Of a stretch of 64,000 bases of DNA, positions 4,494 through 19,986 are shown piece after piece. The position numbers and the translations under genes are program-made. This DNA is from Loktanella sp. M215 (lineage in GTDB: Bacteria; Pseudomonadota; Alphaproteobacteria; Rhodobacterales; Rhodobacteraceae): contig NZ_WMEA01000001.1 in the NCBI RefSeq assembly GCF_021735925.1, forward strand, positions 2,138,001 to 2,202,000, written 5' to 3'. Within the stretch, counting starts at the first letter, position 1. Each line of letters opens with the position of its first letter. The notes beneath the pieces are model-generated. The model was not told the DNA's origin. It did no database searches and worked only from the letters and a program-made list of their open reading frames with translations.

Positions 4494-4568
4494 TGGAGCG
4501 GGCGAAGAGATTCGAACTCTCGACCCTAACCTTGGCAAGGTTATGCTCTACCCCTGAGCTACGCCCGC
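4494..4568 (-). tRNA. tRNA-Gly (anticodon GCC)
   Basis: Read on the minus strand it begins GCGGGCGTAGCTCAGGGG and ends with CCA encoded. The acceptor stem GCGGGCG/CGCCCGC is perfect. The anticodon loop is CTTGCCAAG, giving GCC. The T arm has the GAGAGTTCGAATCTC sequence. Length with CCA is 75. Confidence 0.97.
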
Positions 4569-4643: not shown

Positions 4644-4796
4644 CTGAAACGCGAAAGGGCCGCCCCGCAGGGCGACCCTTTTCGTTTGACCGATGGAGCG
4701 GGCGAAGAGATTCGAACTCTCGACCCTAACCTTGGCAAGGTTATGCTCTACCCCTGAGCTACGCCCGCGCGCCAATCGGTAGCGGTGATCTATAAA
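4644..4796. repeat. Tandem 200-bp repeat carrying tRNA-Gly, right copy
   Basis: Right-hand copy of the duplication that starts at 4445. It includes the terminator-like hairpin (about 4654-4684), the tRNA and about 28 bases of 5' flank. Confidence 0.85.
4694..4768 (-). tRNA. tRNA-Gly (anticodon GCC), second copy
   Basis: Identical by eye to the copy at 4494-4568, including acceptor stem, GCC anticodon and encoded CCA. On the minus strand this copy is transcribed first. The terminator-like hairpin between the copies suggests either separate promoters or a partly read-through transcript. Confidence 0.97.
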
Positions 4797-13202: not shown

Positions 13203-13370
13203 GCGGCTGCAGTAGCGCCGATTGCCGCGCGGTTCACCCGGTAAATTGTACCGATGACAACGGCGCGGGGGTGCGGTCTGCGTGGGGAGATCCTGCGGGC
13301 GATGCGGTTCGGCGTTCGGGGGCCGGGCGATACGGTTGCGACAGTATGCGCCGCAGGGAACGCCGCCAAC

Positions 13371-13408
13371 AAAAAAGGCGATGCGCGGGAGGAGGTGCGC
13401 ATCGCCTT
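13371..13408 (-). terminator. Terminator of the hairpin array, carrying the CCTCCTCCC loop itself
   Basis: The last hairpin on the minus strand has a perfect 12-bp stem (13375-13386 with 13397-13408) around ACCTCCTCCC, followed by six T residues (13371-13376 on the plus strand are A, two of which also pair). It has the form of an intrinsic terminator whose loop is the array motif, so the final RNA can end on a functional loop. Confidence 0.85.
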
Positions 13409-13502
13409 CATTTGGATGTGGACCCTCGGGAGGAGGTAAGAGCCCGCATCTGGTGCCCGGACCGCAGGGAGGAGGTTGCGGCAGCGGGCGTATCCGGGTT
13501 GG

Positions 13503-13654
13503 CCGCGGGAGGAGGTGCAGCGCCCGTATCAGGTCAGTCGGTGGTGGCCGGGAGGAGGTAGCCACCACCGATCTGGGTTGGACGGTGCCGCAGGGAGGAG
13601 GTTGCGGGCCGTCCGGGTCGAAGGTCCGACGGTCAGCCCGGGAGGAGGTGGGCG
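13503..13654. repeat. Duplicated four-hairpin block, copy A
   Basis: This 152-bp stretch, covering hairpins at 13507, 13550, 13593 and 13640, recurs at an offset of 173 bases with about five substitutions by eye. One substitution (13560 A versus 13733 G) lets the copy B stem gain an extra pair at the loop edge. Spacing and gene-free content point to a recent tandem duplication within the RNA array. Confidence 0.9.
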
Positions 13655-13675
13655 TCGGTCGGACTATCCGGGCTA

Positions 13676-13827
13676 CCGCGGGAGGAGGTGCAGCGCCCGT
13701 ATCAGGTCAGTCGGTGGTGGCCGGGAGGAGGTGGCCACCACCGATCTGTGTTGGACTGCGCCGCAGGGAGGAGGTTGCGGGCCGTCCGGGTCGAAGGTCC
13801 GACGGTCGGCCCGGGAGGAGGTGGGCG
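13676..13827. repeat. Duplicated four-hairpin block, copy B
   Basis: Second copy of the block at 13503-13654, covering hairpins at 13680, 13723, 13766 and 13813. It is about 97% identical to copy A over 152 bases, without indels. Confidence 0.9.
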
Positions 13828-14192
13828 CCTGTCGAACCTGTCAGAACCAGCGCGGGAGGAGGTGCGCGGTTCCGATCTGAAACTCTTGTCGGTGGTGGCC
13901 GGGAGGAGGTGACCACCACCGATCGAGGGTGGACGGATCCGCAGGGAGGAGGTTGCGGGCCGTCCGGTCTGTGATCCGCAAGCCAACCAGGGAGGAGGTT
14001 GGCGGCCTGGGGACCGTATGGGCAACTGCGGGAGGAGGTGCAGGTTCCCATATTTCTTAATCTTGTTTAAGACGGTGACCCGGGGAGGAGGTCGGGTCAC
14101 CGTCTTGTCGTTCGCGCCCACCGCAGGGAGGAGGTTGCGGCGGCGCGGGTCAGGATCGGACCAGGGAGGAGGTTGGCCGATCCCGAAGTGAA

Positions 14193-14393
14193 TTACTTGC
14201 CGTAGGCCGCCTCGTGAGCGATCGAACGGATCATCGACCGGCTGATGCCCAGGTCGGCCAGATCGCGGTTGTCCAGCGCCTGAAGTTCGGTCATGGTCGT
14301 GCGGAACACTTTGCGCGCCGCCAGAGCGTCGGACAGGCGGGCCATCAGGCCAGTGGTGCGCGGTGCGGTGGTCGTCGTGTTTGCGTATGCCAT
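14193..14393 (-). CDS. DUF1127 small basic protein, CcaF1-like
   Basis: 66 residues. The N-terminus MAYANTTTTAP and the C-terminal DUF1127 helix (TELQALDNRDLADLGISRS, ending HEAAYGK) match the short arginine-rich DUF1127 proteins of Rhodobacterales. In R. sphaeroides the protein at this position (CcaF1) is an RNA-binding factor in maturation and turnover of the downstream CcsR small RNAs. Here too the gene lies 5' of the CCTCCTCCC hairpins on the same strand, with about 10-20 bases between, so the same role is inferred. The start MAYA is chosen by family likeness; an ATG two codons upstream is possible. I could not assign its promoter confidently; it should lie within 14394-14670. Confidence 0.9.
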   Translation of the reverse strand: MAYANTTTTAPRTTGLMARLSDALAARKVFRTTMTELQALDNRDLADLGISRSMIRSIAHEAAYGK

Positions 14394-14500
14394 TTTCATC
14401 TCGTCTTTCTTAAAGTCCGGTGCAGAGCGATGTGTTTGTCGTTCTGCTTGTGTCCATGATGTATGATAATGCTGCACCTGCACAACGGCTGTATCGACAA

Positions 14501-14515
14501 TGCTGCTATGCAGCA
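14501..14515. promoter_or_regulatory. Short inverted repeat in the divergent DUF1127/mrp gap
   Basis: TGCTGC-TAT-GCAGCA is a perfect 6-bp dyad in the 279-base gap between the divergent DUF1127 and mrp genes. It could be an operator or a leader hairpin. Nothing else in the gap was recognised with confidence. Confidence 0.3.
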
Positions 14516-14672
14516 GATGCAAGGTTACTCTGGGACAGTTATTAATCCGCCCAACAACCGGGCAACGGCCCTGCGTACACCATGGAAAATAGGGGCTTGC
14601 GCCGCTGGGTGTCGGGACACAGGGTGCGCGTCAACTGATGATCGCGACCGGGTTTGTGAAGGAAATATGTAT

Positions 14673-15746
14673 ATGCCAGCGTCAAAAGAGGAAATTCAGG
14701 CCTGTGTTGCAGCGATCGCTGTGCCCGGCGGCGGTACTTTGGGGTCGCGTGACATGGTGCGCGCGGTGCAGGTCGATGCGGCCAGCGTCCGCTTCGTGAT
14801 CGAGGCGCCGGATGCCGCGACGGCGGCGACGCTGGAGCCGGTGCGGCAGGCGGCTGTTGCTGCGGTGCAGCAAATGACGGACGGGCTGACGGTCTCGGCC
14901 GTGCTGACGGCGCATGGGGCGGCGCCTGCGGCCCCGGCGCCGCCCAGTCTGAAGGTGGGGCGGCATCCGACGCCGCAGGCGGGGCCCGCACCCGTTGTCG
15001 GGGTCGACCGGATTTTGGCCATCGGATCGGGCAAGGGCGGCGTCGGCAAATCGACGGTGTCGTCGAACCTGGCCGTGGCGCTGGCCAAAAAGGGCAGGCG
15101 GGTCGGTCTGCTGGATGCCGATATCTACGGTCCCAGCCAGCCGCGGATGATGGGGGTGAGCAAACGCCCCGCCAGTCCCGACGGCAAGACGATCATCCCG
15201 CTGCACGCCCACGGTGTCACCATGATGTCGATCGGGTTGATGGTGGACCCGGACAAGGCGGTGGTCTGGCGCGGGCCGATGCTGATGGGCGCCTTGCAGC
15301 AGATGCTGACGCAGGTGGCCTGGGGCGAGCTGGATGTGCTGATCATCGACCTGCCGCCGGGGACGGGGGACGTGCAGCTGACACTCTGTCAGAAGACGAG
15401 TGTCACCGGCGCCGTCATCGTGTCCACGCCGCAGGACGTGGCATTGCTGGATGCACGCAAGGCGATCGACATGTTCAAGACGCTGAACACGCCGCTGCTG
15501 GGCCTGATCGAGAACATGTCTACCTTCTATTGCCCCCATTGCGGAGAGGAGACGCAGATCTTTGGCCATGGCGGCGTCGCGCACGAGGCGGAGCGTCTGG
15601 GGGTGCCGTTCCTGGGCGCGCTGCCCATCGACCTCGACACGCGGCTGTCAGGGGATGCGGGGACGCCGGTGGCGCTGGGCGACGGGCCGGTGGCCGAGGC
15701 CTATGCCGCCCTCGCGCAGCGGTTCATCGACGGCGGGATGGCCTAA
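14673..15746 (+). CDS. mrp: Mrp/ApbC (NBP35-type) iron-sulfur carrier ATPase
   Basis: 357 residues. The N-terminal 80 residues form the DUF59/MIP18-like domain (VPGGGTLGSRDMVRAVQV). A deviant Walker A follows, GSGKGGVGKST at about 118-128, then DADIYGPSQPRMMG, IIDLPPGTGD and the CPHC motif that bridges an Fe-S cluster in the dimer. It carries or helps assemble Fe-S clusters in the cytoplasm. The ATG at 14673 is favoured over one at 14667, since AAGGA is about nine bases upstream of the former and only about three from the latter. It is divergent from the DUF1127 gene. Confidence 0.93.
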   Translation: MPASKEEIQACVAAIAVPGGGTLGSRDMVRAVQVDAASVRFVIEAPDAATAATLEPVRQAAVAAVQQMTDGLTVSAVLTAHGAAPAAPAPPSLKVGRHPTPQAGPAPVVGVDRILAIGSGKGGVGKSTVSSNLAVALAKKGRRVGLLDADIYGPSQPRMMGVSKRPASPDGKTIIPLHAHGVTMMSIGLMVDPDKAVVWRGPMLMGALQQMLTQVAWGELDVLIIDLPPGTGDVQLTLCQKTSVTGAVIVSTPQDVALLDARKAIDMFKTLNTPLLGLIENMSTFYCPHCGEETQIFGHGGVAHEAERLGVPFLGALPIDLDTRLSGDAGTPVALGDGPVAEAYAALAQRFIDGGMA

Positions 15747-15787
15747 GCGTCGAATCGGATTCTGCGTGAACCTTTGTGAATCGATGT

Positions 15788-15810
15788 CGGGTCGCCCTTG
15801 GGGCGGCCCG
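15788..15810 (+). terminator. Rho-independent-type terminator after mrp
   Basis: CGGGTCGCCC pairs with GGGCGGCCCG (10 bp with one G-T) around TTG, and ATTCTGTTTTC follows. It is about 40 bases downstream of the mrp stop. Confidence 0.75.
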
Positions 15811-15950
15811 ATTCTGTTTTCAAATGCCGAAAATTAGCGCATTAACCTTTACGTTAGGGGATTGACTGCGTCTGCGGCGACACGCTTTTGGACCGACTCG
15901 GAGGTGGGCCAAAACTTTTTTGGGGGCGCTGTGACCCGCGCCGTTCGTTT

Positions 15951-16019
15951 CAGATTTATACAATATATTGGGAAAACTATCCACAGGCATACTACATGCC
16001 ACCGCCGCCCTGTGGACAA
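15951..16019. promoter_or_regulatory. AT-rich tract with inverted DnaA-box-like pair upstream of the dcw leader
   Basis: An AT-rich run (TTTATACAATATATTGGG, 15955-15972) is followed by CTATCCACA at 15977-15985, one base from the DnaA box TTATCCACA. TGTGGACAA at 16011-16019, the reverse complement of TTGTCCACA, is also one base off. Between them lies the dyad GGCAT-ACTAC-ATGCC. This suggests DnaA control of the cell-division cluster or a DnaA-titration site. A TTAACC half-site resembling CtrA binding sequence lies upstream at about 15841-15846. None of this is proven. Confidence 0.4.
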
Positions 16020-16119
16020 GATCCGAATCACAGGGCCGTGAGAAGACCGGAGATTCCGTGAAGTTCACAGCAATCCCAATTTAGGCGTTGCCCGATCCCA
16101 ACCGGTCTGCCAAAACAGT

Positions 16120-16332
16120 CTCACGGTAACGACGGGCAGACAAACAAGGGGCATCACAAGAACCCCACCGGCAAAATGTCAGGTTTCATACAGGCCTCGT
16201 TTTTACCAACACAGCGATCCGGCGCGCGAGCGAGCAGACATCCCCCCAGGTGGCGCGCGCAGTCGGTCCAGCCCTTCACAGGGCAGAAGGCGGCGGGTTG
16301 AGTAGTGGCAGCTACCTCAATCCGCCGTTTTC
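16120..16332 (+). ncRNA. UpsM-like small RNA from the dcw 5' leader (5' end estimated)
   Basis: In R. sphaeroides the dcw operon begins with a long leader from which the roughly 200-nt RNA UpsM is released by partial termination just upstream of mraZ. The same arrangement is seen here: no protein-coding frame, a strong intrinsic terminator ending about 48 bases before the mraZ start, and genome position directly upstream of mraZ. The 3' end is set by the terminator. The 5' end is only an estimate from the known length. I saw no RNase P, tmRNA or 6S signature in this gap. Confidence 0.6.
16291..16331 (+). terminator. Strong terminator upstream of mraZ (UpsM 3' end)
   Basis: CGGCGGGTTGAG (from 16291) pairs with CTCAATCCGCCG (to 16327) over 12 positions, extended by TAG/CTA across a one-base bulge, then TTTTC follows. 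An intrinsic terminator placed inside the leader of an essential operon implies regulated or partial read-through. Confidence 0.85.
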
Positions 16333-16379
16333 ACATCTAGCACAGAATTCCGGGGGACGGGCAGTCAGAAGGTCACAGG

Positions 16380-16871
16380 TTGAACCTCTCGTTCACGAGC
16401 ACGTATCAGTCGAAAGTTGACGCCAAGGGTCGTATGTCGATCCCGGCGAAATTTCGACGCGTGATCGAGGCGGGCGACCCGGCCTGGGCCCCCGACCAGC
16501 CGATGACCGCCAAGATCCTGTACGGCAAGCATCTGGGCGAAAGCCTGCAGGTGCTGACGATGGAGGCGTTCGACGCCAAGATCGCGCGCGTCATGGCGAT
16601 GCCTGACTCTGACCCCAACAAGAACAAGCTGCGCAAGCTGTTCATGGGCTTTTCCGAAGACCTGACCATCGACAAGGACGGCCGCGTCGTCCTTGCCCTG
16701 CGGTTGCGCGAAAAGCTGGGACTGGTGGAGGGCGAATTGTCCTTCATGGGTCTGGGCGAGTATTTCCAGATCTGGAAGGTCGAGAACTTCGAGACGGAGG
16801 TCGATGCGCCTCTGGACGAATGGCTGGCCGAGATGGGCGACGATTTCGATCCCATGAGTCTTGTCCCGTAA
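16380..16871 (+). CDS. mraZ: MraZ transcriptional regulator, TTG start
   Basis: 163 residues with two SpoVT/AbrB-like MraZ repeats: DAKGRMSIPAKFRRV at 15-29 and IDKDGRVVLALRLREKLGL at about 97-115. MraZ binds repeated G-rich boxes upstream of the dcw operon and represses it. The start is TTG at 16380, placed by AGAAGG seven bases upstream and by the conserved N-terminal sequence FTSTYQSKVDAKGR; no ATG fits. It is the first gene of the dcw cluster, nine bases before rsmH. Confidence 0.93.
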   Translation: MNLSFTSTYQSKVDAKGRMSIPAKFRRVIEAGDPAWAPDQPMTAKILYGKHLGESLQVLTMEAFDAKIARVMAMPDSDPNKNKLRKLFMGFSEDLTIDKDGRVVLALRLREKLGLVEGELSFMGLGEYFQIWKVENFETEVDAPLDEWLAEMGDDFDPMSLVP

Positions 16872-16880
16872 GGATCGCCG

Positions 16881-17846
16881 ATGACCGATGCCCCCCACAT
16901 CCCCGTCCTGATCGATGCGATCATCACGGCATGCGCCCCGATTCACGGCACGTGGCTTGACGGCACATTCGGCGCCGGCGGCTATACGAGGCGCCTGCTG
17001 GAGGCGGGGGCGGAGCGGGTGATCGCCGTGGACCGCGATCCGCTGGCGTTCGAAATGGCGGCGGATTGGATCGGCGACTACGGCGACCGGATCGTGCCAG
17101 TGGCGGGCGAGTTTTCCAAGCTGGATCAGTATGGCAGCGACCTGGATGGCGTGGTGTTGGATCTGGGTGTCAGTTCGATGCAGCTTGATCTGGCGGAACG
17201 CGGATTTTCGTTCATGCGGGACGGGCCGCTGGACATGCGGATGAGCCAGAGTGGCCCGTCCGCAGCCGACCTTGTCAACACGAGGGACGAGGCGGAACTG
17301 GCCGATATCATTTATCTTTACGGCGAGGAGCGGGCGTCGCGCCGGATCGCCAAGGCCATCGTCGCGGCGCGGCCTGTGACCACCACGGCGCAGCTTGCGC
17401 GGATCGTGGAATCCTGCCTGCCGCGCGCCAAGCCGAACCAGAGCCACCCGGCGACACGGACGTTTCAGGCGCTGCGGATCGCGGTGAACGACGAATACGG
17501 AGAGCTCGCGTCGGGGATGGAAGCGGCAGAGCGCGCGCTGGCGCCCGGCGGGCAGCTGGCGGTCGTGACCTTCCATTCGGTCGAGGACCGGATGGCCAAG
17601 CGATTCATCCAGACGCGCAGCGCCACGACGCCCAATGCGAATCGCTATGCGCCAGTGCTCGAATCGATCACTCCGGCCTTTACACAGCGGACTCGCAAGG
17701 CGATTGTGGCGTCAAAAGAAGAAGTAGCAGTCAATCCACGTTCCAGATCCGCGAAGCTGCGCGTGGCGATCCGCACGGATGCGCCCGCCCAGCCGATGGA
17801 CCGCAAGGACATGGGGATGCCGATGATGAGGGGCGACGGCGCATGA
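16881..17846 (+). CDS. rsmH: 16S rRNA (cytosine-1402-N4) methyltransferase
   Basis: 321 residues. The N-terminus [12 protein letters not shown] and the SAM-binding loop [15 protein letters not shown] (about 28-42) are diagnostic, as are [18 protein letters not shown] and the late [14 protein letters not shown]. It methylates C1402 in the ribosomal P site. It follows mraZ by nine bases and overlaps ftsL by ATGA. Confidence 0.95.
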
Positions 17847-18205
17847 TGCGGGCGGTGATGTACGTTGTGGCGGCGTTGACCGTCATGGGGCTGGCCTTCT
17901 GGGCCTATCAGGAAAACTATCGCACGCAGCAGTCGATCAGTCAGGTCCGGCATCTGCACGCGCAGATCGGTGACGCCCATGAACGGCTGGGCATGTTGCG
18001 GGCGGAATGGGCCTACCTCAACCGGCCCGACCGGCTGATCGATCTGGCCGAGATCAACTTTGACCGGCTTGGCCTGTTGCCGCTGTCGCCGGAAGCCTTC
18101 GGTGACGTCGAGGCCATCGTCTATCCGCTGCCGGACATCCTGCCGATCACGAACCCCGTCGACATCAACTCGATCCCGCCGTCCGGCGAGGAGGACCCCC
18201 TATGA
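17843..18205 (+). CDS. ftsL: Cell division protein FtsL
   Basis: 120 residues with one N-terminal membrane helix (about 4-20) and then a coiled-coil-like periplasmic stretch ([24 protein letters not shown]). The [11 protein letters not shown] element is typical of alphaproteobacterial FtsL. It links FtsQ/FtsB to FtsW/FtsI in the divisome. It is in the conserved place between rsmH and ftsI, with four-base overlaps on both sides, so translation is coupled. Confidence 0.9.
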
Positions 18206-19986
18206 TCCGCACGCCCCTGCGCCCGCTGGCCCGCATCCTCAAGGCGCGCGAAAAGGGCGAGGACCCGAGCGCCATCGCCGCCGAGAACCTGCGTCTGCGT
18301 CACGAGGCCATCGCCGACAAGTCGCGGGCGCGCGCCGAAGGCCGGCTGCTGGTGCTGGGGGCATTCTTTGCCGTGGCCTTCGTCGCAATCGGGCTGCGAA
18401 TGGGGACGATCGCCAATTCGATGCCCGAAGAGCCGCGCACCGCAGCCACCGGCAACCCGATCATCGGCCAGCGGGCGGATATCGTGGACCGGAACGGGCG
18501 TATTCTGGCGACCAATCTGGAAACGCACAGCCTTTACGCCCAGCCGCAGCACATGATCGACCCGATTCGTGCCGCCAAGGAGTTGAAGGCGATCTTTCCG
18601 GAACTGAACGAAGAGCGGATGATCAAGGATTTCACCGGCAAGCGGAAATTCGTCTGGATCCGCAGGCAGTTGAGCCCGGAGCAGATGCAGCTGGTGCATG
18701 ACATCGGCAGCCCCGGCCTGCTGTTCGGCCCGCGCGAGATGCGGCTGTATCCCAACGGTCCCATCGCGTCGCACGTGCTGGGCGGGGCAAGCTATGGTCG
18801 CGAGGATGTGGCGAGCGCCGAGGTGATCGGCGTGGCTGGCATCGAGCGTCGTTTCGACAGCCTGCTGCGCGATCCTGCCAACGAGGGCAAGCCGCTGGAA
18901 CTGTCGCTTGATCTCACCGTGCAGGCGGCGACCGAAGAGGTGCTGGACGGCGGCATGAAGCTGATGAACGCCAAGGGTGCCGCGGCGGTCCTGATGGACG
19001 TGCATACGGGTGAGATCATCGCACTGGCCTCGCTGCCGGATTTCGACCCGAACAACCGCCCACAAGTGCTGCTGAAGGGCGACCAGTCCGACAGCCCGCT
19101 GTTCAACCGCGCGGTGCAGGGCGTTTACGAGCTGGGATCGACCTTCAAGATTTTTGCCGTGGCGCAGGCGATGGAACTCGGGCTGGTGAACCCGCAGACC
19201 ATCATCGACACCAAGGGGCCGCTGACCTGGGGCCGGTTTCGCATCCGCGACAGCCACAGCATGCCGGCGACCCTGACGGTCGAGGACGTGATCGCTGAAT
19301 CCTCGAACGTCGGCACCGGCCGGATCGCGATGCTGGTCGGCGGCGACCGGCAGAGCAAGTTTCTGGCCAGCCTTGGCCTGACGGAACCGACGCAGGTCGA
19401 ACTGTCCGAGGCGCCCTCTGGTCAGCCGCTGGTGCCCAAGAACTGGTCCGAAATCTCGACCATGACGATTTCCTTTGGGCACGGTATTTCGGATTCACCA
19501 CTGCATCTGGCGTCGGCCTATGCGTCGCTGCTGAATGGCGGGACGCGGGTGCTGCCGACCCTGCTGAAGACGAATGTCGTGCAGCACGGTGCGCGGGTGG
19601 TCAGCGAAGATACCAGCGCCAAGGCGCGCCACATGCTGCGCCGGGTCGTGGAAGAAGGCACGGCGTCAATGGGGGATGTGCCGGGTTACGAGGTGGGCGG
19701 CAAGACCGGCACCGCCGACAAGCCCCGCACCGACGGGCGCGGCTATTACGATGACAAGGTCATCGCGACCTTCGCCTCGATCTTTCCGGCCGATGATCCG
19801 AAGTATGTGCTGATCGTCACGCTGGACGAACCGAGCGAGAATTCCGGTGAAAAACCCCGTCGCACGGCGGGCTGGACGGCGGTGCCGGTGGCGGCGGAAA
19901 TGATCCGCCGGGTGGCGCCGCTGCTGGGCCTGCGACCGCAGCTTGAATCCACCGACGTGGCAAGTGTAACACTCACCTCTAACTGA
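18202..19986 (+). CDS. ftsI: Peptidoglycan transpeptidase FtsI (PBP3)
   Basis: 594 residues: a cytoplasmic lead, one membrane helix at about 48-70, the PBP dimer domain, then the transpeptidase domain. Catalytic motifs are complete: STFK at 313-316, SSN at 367-369 and KTGTA from 501. It cross-links septal peptidoglycan together with FtsW. The start overlaps ftsL by ATGA. Confidence 0.96.
   Translation: MIRTPLRPLARILKAREKGEDPSAIAAENLRLRHEAIADKSRARAEGRLLVLGAFFAVAFVAIGLRMGTIANSMPEEPRTAATGNPIIGQRADIVDRNGRILATNLETHSLYAQPQHMIDPIRAAKELKAIFPELNEERMIKDFTGKRKFVWIRRQLSPEQMQLVHDIGSPGLLFGPREMRLYPNGPIASHVLGGASYGREDVASAEVIGVAGIERRFDSLLRDPANEGKPLELSLDLTVQAATEEVLDGGMKLMNAKGAAAVLMDVHTGEIIALASLPDFDPNNRPQVLLKGDQSDSPLFNRAVQGVYELGSTFKIFAVAQAMELGLVNPQTIIDTKGPLTWGRFRIRDSHSMPATLTVEDVIAESSNVGTGRIAMLVGGDRQSKFLASLGLTEPTQVELSEAPSGQPLVPKNWSEISTMTISFGHGISDSPLHLASAYASLLNGGTRVLPTLLKTNVVQHGARVVSEDTSAKARHMLRRVVEEGTASMGDVPGYEVGGKTGTADKPRTDGRGYYDDKVIATFASIFPADDPKYVLIVTLDEPSENSGEKPRRTAGWTAVPVAAEMIRRVAPLLGLRPQLESTDVASVTLTSN

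Follow-up and report, generated by a model that had tools for sequence, protein, structure and literature searches.

A 19-hairpin cuckoo-type RNA array behind a DUF1127 gene in Loktanella sp. M215 and a conserved VtlR-like box ahead of such arrays

Background

The small RNAs known as alpha-r14 or cuckoo in rhizobia (NfeR1, SmelA075 and SmelA099; Rfam RF02344) are composed of adjacent hairpins that share one loop motif on variable stems, the same plan as the array described here. In the available portions of the literature the rhizobial members have two to four hairpins, and they often occur without a recognised DUF1127 gene in front. The family itself was proposed as hairpin modules in varying number, as stated in the accessible part of PMC3927594. 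NfeR1 possesses a sigma70-type promoter, and the accessible text describes silencing of ntrB via its anti-Shine-Dalgarno (anti-SD) loops. The closest relative in gene order is the CcaF1-CcsR1-4 operon of Rhodobacter sphaeroides (RSP_6037), in which a DUF1127 gene is likewise followed by CCUCCUCCC loops in the 3' UTR and an end terminator. According to the sections available, the CcsR RNAs derive from the ccaF1 3' UTR through RNase E, act on flhR and interact with Hfq; the CcaF1 protein binds RNA and affects their maturation, and raised CcaF1 interferes with it. The operon is read from an RpoHI/RpoHII promoter, and RpoH is the only control named for CcsR-type loci in those sections.

The LsrB/VtlR regulon of rhizobia, Brucella and Agrobacterium, with its AbcR RNAs and DUF1127 genes, represents a further point of comparison. 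The accessible parts of the corresponding papers place an LsrB form, TGCA-N6-GCAT, at the NfeR1 promoter (PMC10746234), give a VtlR site that reads TGCATGGCTGCATTG on the other strand (PMC12595884), and describe LsrB as unique to Rhizobiales (PMC11975290). Additional background, also available in part, is found in PMC8625941, PMC10253847, PMC7143759, PMC7486931, PMC12501420, PMC8307010, PMC7074977 and PMC12218461.

Results

Anatomy and identity of the array

In the window, meaning the whole 64,000-nt stretch of Loktanella sp. M215 DNA that was analysed, the motif CCTCCTCCC occurs 20 times, compared to 0.93 expected from shuffling. All but one of these exact copies (19/20) belong to the minus strand and fall within 13387-14172, with start-to-start spacings of 38-53 nt. 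A preliminary description had claimed 19 tandem copies behind a DUF1127 gene, each in its own hairpin, and both statements hold. The array spans 13371-14186, directly 3' of the gene, and the minimum-energy fold of the minus strand places each of the 19 motifs in the loop of a separate hairpin, with a 10-nt loop ACCUCCUCCC and a stem of 9-16 pairs (Table 1). The linkers between hairpins measure 0-8 nt, with the sole exception of the 16 AU-rich nucleotides that separate hairpin 3 from hairpin 4. This locus accounts for all 18 motif pairs found genome-wide and is the only exact-motif array in the assembly. Six U come after hairpin 19, as in a Rho-independent terminator; the last hairpin carries the exact motif in eight of nine congeners and one mismatch in G002.

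The DUF1127 gene ends 21 nt ahead of the first motif and stands ahead of the array in all nine congeners. Its product scores 42.6 bits against Pfam PF06568 (cut-off 23.3) in a scan that began at the in-frame ATG at 14399, the next ATG, at 14393, being the genus-conserved start. The RF02344 covariance model exceeds its gathering score of 58.8 at both ends of the array, with 70 bits at hairpins 17-19 and 63.4 bits at hairpins 1-3. Therefore the array is of a known kind (cuckoo, alpha-r14 or CcsR type), and the DUF1127 and CcsR/cuckoo identity first proposed is borne out. As in alpha-r14, CCUCCUCCC is present in 19 of 19 loops while the stems vary. Its 19 hairpins in one run stand against two to four adjacent hairpins in the rhizobial alpha-r14 members, and against four RNAs, the first with two stem-loops, in the accessible account of CcsR1-4. 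Because the family was proposed with a varying number of modules, the array was counted as a variant of alpha-r14 and not as an exclusion from it.

Table 1. Features of the array and its upstream region (window positions)
Feature	Position	Strand	Basis
LsrB-type motif TGCA-N6-GCAT	14508..14521	-	Read from sequence; form as in the available part of PMC10746234
VtlR-like box TGCATAGCAGCATTG	14498..14512	-	2 of 15 positions mismatched to the published VtlR site, opposite strand
Palindrome TGCTGCATAGCAGCA	14501-14515		Overlaps VtlR-like box
Promoter-like stretch, TTGTGC then CATACAT	14459..14485	-	Genus-conserved, read by eye
DUF1127 gene, 66 aa, CcaF1-like	14193..14393	-	Pfam and congener alignment
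Hairpins 1-3	14069..14186	-	Fold; Rfam ar14 match 14067-14191, 63.4 bits (gathering 58.8)
AU-rich 16-nt linker, hairpins 3/4	14053..14068	-	Fold; possible cleavage place
Hairpins 4-8	13841..14052	-	Fold
Hairpins 9-12, first copy of 173-nt four-hairpin block	13669..13839	-	92% identity to next block
Hairpins 13-16, second copy of 173-nt block	13495..13668	-	Fold and block comparison
Hairpins 17-18	13415..13489	-	Fold; with hairpin 19 inside Rfam ar14 match 13371-13495, 70 bits
Hairpin 19 and six U, terminator-like, motif in loop	13371..13408	-	Sequence and fold

Selection on hairpin structure

A fold of the array had been proposed as a check in the preliminary description. Over 13371-14190 (820 nt, minus strand) the predicted energy is -393.4 kcal/mol versus -294.3 (sd 5.6) for 20 dinucleotide shuffles, a z of -17.7. 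When arms were swapped between hairpins, the four loop-proximal pairs fell from 100% to 48-58%. Canonical 10-nt loops decreased from 17 to 4 of the 19 hairpins in the window array, from 88 to 16 of the 102 distinct hairpins of the genus, and from 261 to 47 of 648 distinct hairpins pooled beyond the genus. Since these fractions differ between the genus and the wider pool, the exact 10-nt register is typical of Loktanella and less so elsewhere.

Stems were compared between the window and four congeners (G001, G002, G004 and G008) over 49 hairpins matched at a minimum of 75% identity. Among 603 stem pairs, 550 were unchanged, 41 altered yet pairing and 12 broken; 41 of the 53 altered pairs therefore keep pairing, 10 of them via changes on both sides. 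Changes were seen at 66 of 1206 stem positions and 105 of 509 unpaired positions outside the motif, both rates being depressed by the similarity-based choice of matched hairpins. The loops of the nine Loktanella arrays comprise 128 exact motifs and 3 with one mismatch (131 hairpins), and six two-mismatch sites are listed in addition to that count. Constant loops, varying stems that pair in place and not when swapped, and compensatory changes agree with the selection on structure claimed earlier. Sequence comparison and predicted folds thus support selection for RNA structure in the array hairpins.

Array length and growth

The exact loops in the nine Loktanella genomes (G000-G008) number 19, 23, 14, 11, 15, 11, 10, 11 and 14, the 23 belonging to Loktanella atrilutea (G001), and 26 loops stand behind a DUF1127 gene in another genus (G153). 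In the family census, exact motifs separated by 26-56 nt were summed over all places of a genome, and at least one motif pair was found in 307 of 395 family genomes, although the reversed control pattern also matches some census genomes, up to 8 times. Across 394 of the 395 genomes, the median is 4 pairs per positive genome, 19 genomes have at least 10, and three have at least 18 (the window's, G274 and G153); the sums for G024, G041 and G088 include places outside the main array. Loop counts grade smoothly down to one pair across the family. A DUF1127 gene was seen in front in 7 of 10 large-array genomes, all except G041, G024 and G274. The gene was recognised by regular expression, so that any absence of it is soft. 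A class draw of 289 genomes, which samples each family thinly, contained two with three consecutive motifs, both from the same family as the window. A motif-stretch listing over wider records gave at least 120 stretches, and three- or four-loop arrays were common in named rhizobial records among the matches listed. The size of the array had been called unusual, with a loop count in related genomes as the proposed check. It can be seen that the array is extreme, among the top three of the family, but not singular, as a congener with 23 loops and another genus with 26 exceed it.

The segments holding hairpins 9-12 and 13-16 share 92% identity and repeat at a period of 173 nt, and hairpins 9-20 of L. 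atrilutea consist of three rounds of matches to this four-hairpin block. By eye, the repeat unit comprises three hairpins (~140 nt) in G153, G052 and G247 and two hairpins (89 nt) in G330. Since the units differ between genera, long arrays seem to have grown by tandem duplication of whole hairpin blocks more than once, as far as sequence comparison indicates.

Several other motif runs were also observed. The 26-loop array (G153:C1, ~334949-336119) is mostly made of copies of its three-hairpin unit, with the box as well as the DUF1127 gene ahead. Among the matches listed, gut Firmicutes metagenome-assembled genomes (titles Lachnospiraceae and Hungatella) contain motif runs at 36-nt spacing, a multiple of three, which points to coding repeats with no relation to the family. 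One Rhodobacteraceae metagenome-assembled genome, among the matches listed, has motifs in direct tandem at 9-nt steps within hairpin-like spacing.

A conserved box ahead of the arrays

An alignment of nine congeners displays a common block about 100 nt ahead of the DUF1127 gene. The promoter-like stretch of the window (Table 1), conserved in the genus, was identified by eye. A set of 59 distinct array promoters was assembled from loci with at least three motifs, a DUF1127 match and at least 300 nt upstream, with duplicates removed; the commonest form, read by eye from the alignment, is CATGCATTTGCTGCATRGCAGCATTG, a gap, and ATTGTGCANNYGCAGCATT. Record titles or family membership assigned 30 of the 59 to Rhodobacterales, and all 30 contain a VtlR-like box within 3 mismatches (1, 2 and 3 mismatches to the VtlR site in 7, 16 and 7 promoters). 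Only 2 of 300 dinucleotide shuffles reached 3 mismatches, and none had fewer. The other 29 promoters match less well; at 2 mismatches, 2 do so in forward and 8 in reverse orientation.

In the M215 genome the form TGCATRGCNGCATTG is found exactly at the array only, and with one mismatch at 7 further places, compared to 2 for the reversed pattern. Among the four DUF1127 loci of this genome the array locus has 2 box mismatches and the other three have 4-5. A box shared by TTGC and CTGCN3GCAG was also tried and dropped, as its enrichment over the reversed pattern went no further than 63 versus 48. The newer part, relative to the known family, is regulatory, namely the strongly conserved VtlR-like box ahead of the arrays. 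In a literature search with incomplete coverage of the core papers, and hence as weak negatives, neither a VtlR-type box ahead of Rhodobacterales DUF1127 arrays nor a paper on arrays this long was found. The box points to a candidate regulator of CcsR-type loci that can be put to the test.

A LysR gene with a SorX/SorY-like RNA behind it

Ensifer LsrB, taken from beside the alpha-r15 RNA, was used as query and matched in 12 of 13 genomes searched. Each of the nine Loktanella genomes has one gene at E <= 1e-40, with 37-38% identity. In M215 this gene occupies G000:C1:2473447-2474385 on the minus strand (locus 2472800-2475000). Its product shares 47 of 62 residues with Ensifer LsrB in the DNA-binding part and 59 of 230 in the rest, 37% overall, and is read from sequence as a related regulator with a diverged sensor part. 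A VtlR-like box lies 19 nt past the stop of the gene, and a SorX/SorY-like RNA comes next.

Such an RNA is located just 3' of the LysR gene in all nine Loktanella genomes (SorX E 3e-9 to 6e-8; above gathering in 2 and below it in 7), in the place that abcR takes behind lsrB in rhizobia. Loktanella shares with the LsrB/VtlR regulon a LysR gene that has a CU-rich RNA of anti-SD type behind it, and a VtlR-like box ahead of a DUF1127 gene. It differs in the poorly matching effector part of the LysR protein and in an adjoining RNA that matches SorX/SorY and not alpha-r15. The box, at 2 mismatches or fewer, lies 102-104 nt ahead of CCTCCCTG of the SorX/SorY-like RNA in 6 of 9 Loktanella genomes; it is poor in G007 (4 mismatches) and missing in G003 and G005. 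In two Ensifer loci the box pattern was not found between lsrB and the alpha-r15 RNA, and the best matches (3 mismatches) lie before lsrB. The conserved box is probably the site of action of a LysR regulator of LsrB/VtlR type. The box also suggests that the rhizobial circuit of regulator, anti-SD RNA and DUF1127 gene may predate the Rhizobiales.

Discussion

Proposed function

With a probability of roughly 0.7, the locus is a DUF1127-CcsR-type stress operon with an expanded array, which would provide many anti-SD loops per transcript and set their dose by its length. A single promoter would yield a transcript encoding the DUF1127 protein and carrying a 3' UTR of 19 stem-loops, the terminator hairpin being the last. 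The loop ACCUCCUCCC has ACCUCCU in common with the 3' end of 16S rRNA and would pair with Shine-Dalgarno (SD) sequences. By analogy with CcsR1-4 and NfeR1, RNase E may cut this transcript, under the influence of the DUF1127 protein, into short RNAs that would block ribosome-binding sites. More hairpins mean more anti-SD loops per transcript, and block duplication would therefore alter the dose. The idea of dedicated targets, each perfectly complementary to the 9-nt motif, was rejected, as only two such complements lie 3-9 nt ahead of an ATG in the whole genome; with so few, ordinary shorter SD matches are the likely partners. A complementary SD run of at least 4 occurs in 24 of 36 window ORFs versus 11 of 36 shuffled, a weak difference because starts were picked by SD strength.

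Some observations count against this model. Linkers this short offer few single-stranded positions for cleavage. Perfect 9-nt complements ahead of an ATG are as rare as stated above, and the SD comparison of window ORFs is weak. As raised CcaF1 hinders CcsR maturation in the available account, a bigger operon need not give more mature RNA, and rhizobial members with two to four hairpins indicate that large numbers are not required for function.

A wider proposal is put forward tentatively, as possible and no stronger. Recurrent independent duplications of two to four hairpins would make the loop count of Rhodobacteraceae DUF1127-cuckoo arrays an evolvable dose of a broad translation brake, and a LysR regulator of a type (LsrB/VtlR) hitherto attributed to Rhizobiales would drive this brake together with the SorX/SorY-like RNA behind its own gene. 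With up to 26 anti-SD hairpin copies per stretch, these arrays amount to a titration series supplied by nature. Whether small-RNA dose follows array length can be examined by comparing congeners, whose exact loops number 10, 11, 14, 15, 19 and 23.

Alternative explanations

Neutral expansion and protein sponging are serious rivals to dose control by the longer array. Under the former, two or three hairpins would do the work and the remaining duplicates would be kept alike by recombination, in keeping with the 92%-identical blocks, the range of 10 to 23 loops among congeners and the differently sized blocks duplicated in other genera. This is considered unlikely, as the diverged hairpins outside the blocks also retain loop and pairing and merely 3 degenerate loops are found in nine arrays. 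The array could also serve mainly as a platform or sponge for a protein, either the DUF1127 protein or Hfq, and feed back on the operon, with mRNA pairing secondary. Titration suits tandem repeats, and RNA binding by CcaF1, its effect on CcsR maturation and the Hfq interaction of CcsR RNAs, all from partly available sources, point the same way. However, 128 of the 131 genus hairpins keep an exact loop while stems vary, the motif complements the SD sequence, and NfeR1 loops act on ntrB in the accessible account, which makes a primary sponge role quite improbable.

Another alternative concerns the conserved palindrome, which might be a PhaR site, so that the operon would follow polyhydroxybutyrate storage and not a LsrB/VtlR-type regulator. 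The sequence CTGCATAGCAG agrees with the PhaR consensus of R. sphaeroides, CTGCNNNGCAG, given in the accessible part of PMC12542648, CTGCN3GCAG occurs in 24 of 57 promoters versus 0.34 expected from base shuffles, and two such palindromes precede a phasin gene of the M215 genome (PF09361, 26.6 bits; around G000:C1:236386-236400). Yet 23 of the 30 Rhodobacterales promoters contain CTGCATRGCAG exactly, whereas all 30 have the one-sided core GCATRGC, and the centre of the palindrome is CATRG and not free. Control by PhaR is accordingly regarded as doubtful. A coding repeat or CRISPR-like array was rejected and has a negligible probability. A 230-codon plus-strand frame does run across 13282-13974, but 17 of 18 motif spacings are not multiples of three, the inter-motif DNA is self-complementary, which spacers are not, and the fold score given above is strong.

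Neighbouring genes

Divergent from the array, at 14463-19986 of the window, a Mrp/NUBPL-type ATPase gene comes first (Pfam), and beyond it are frames resembling, by eye, mraZ, rsmH and ftsI of the cell-division cluster. Two tRNA genes are located at 4497-4568 and 4697-4768, 200 bases apart, and their equal scores indicate that they are probably identical copies.
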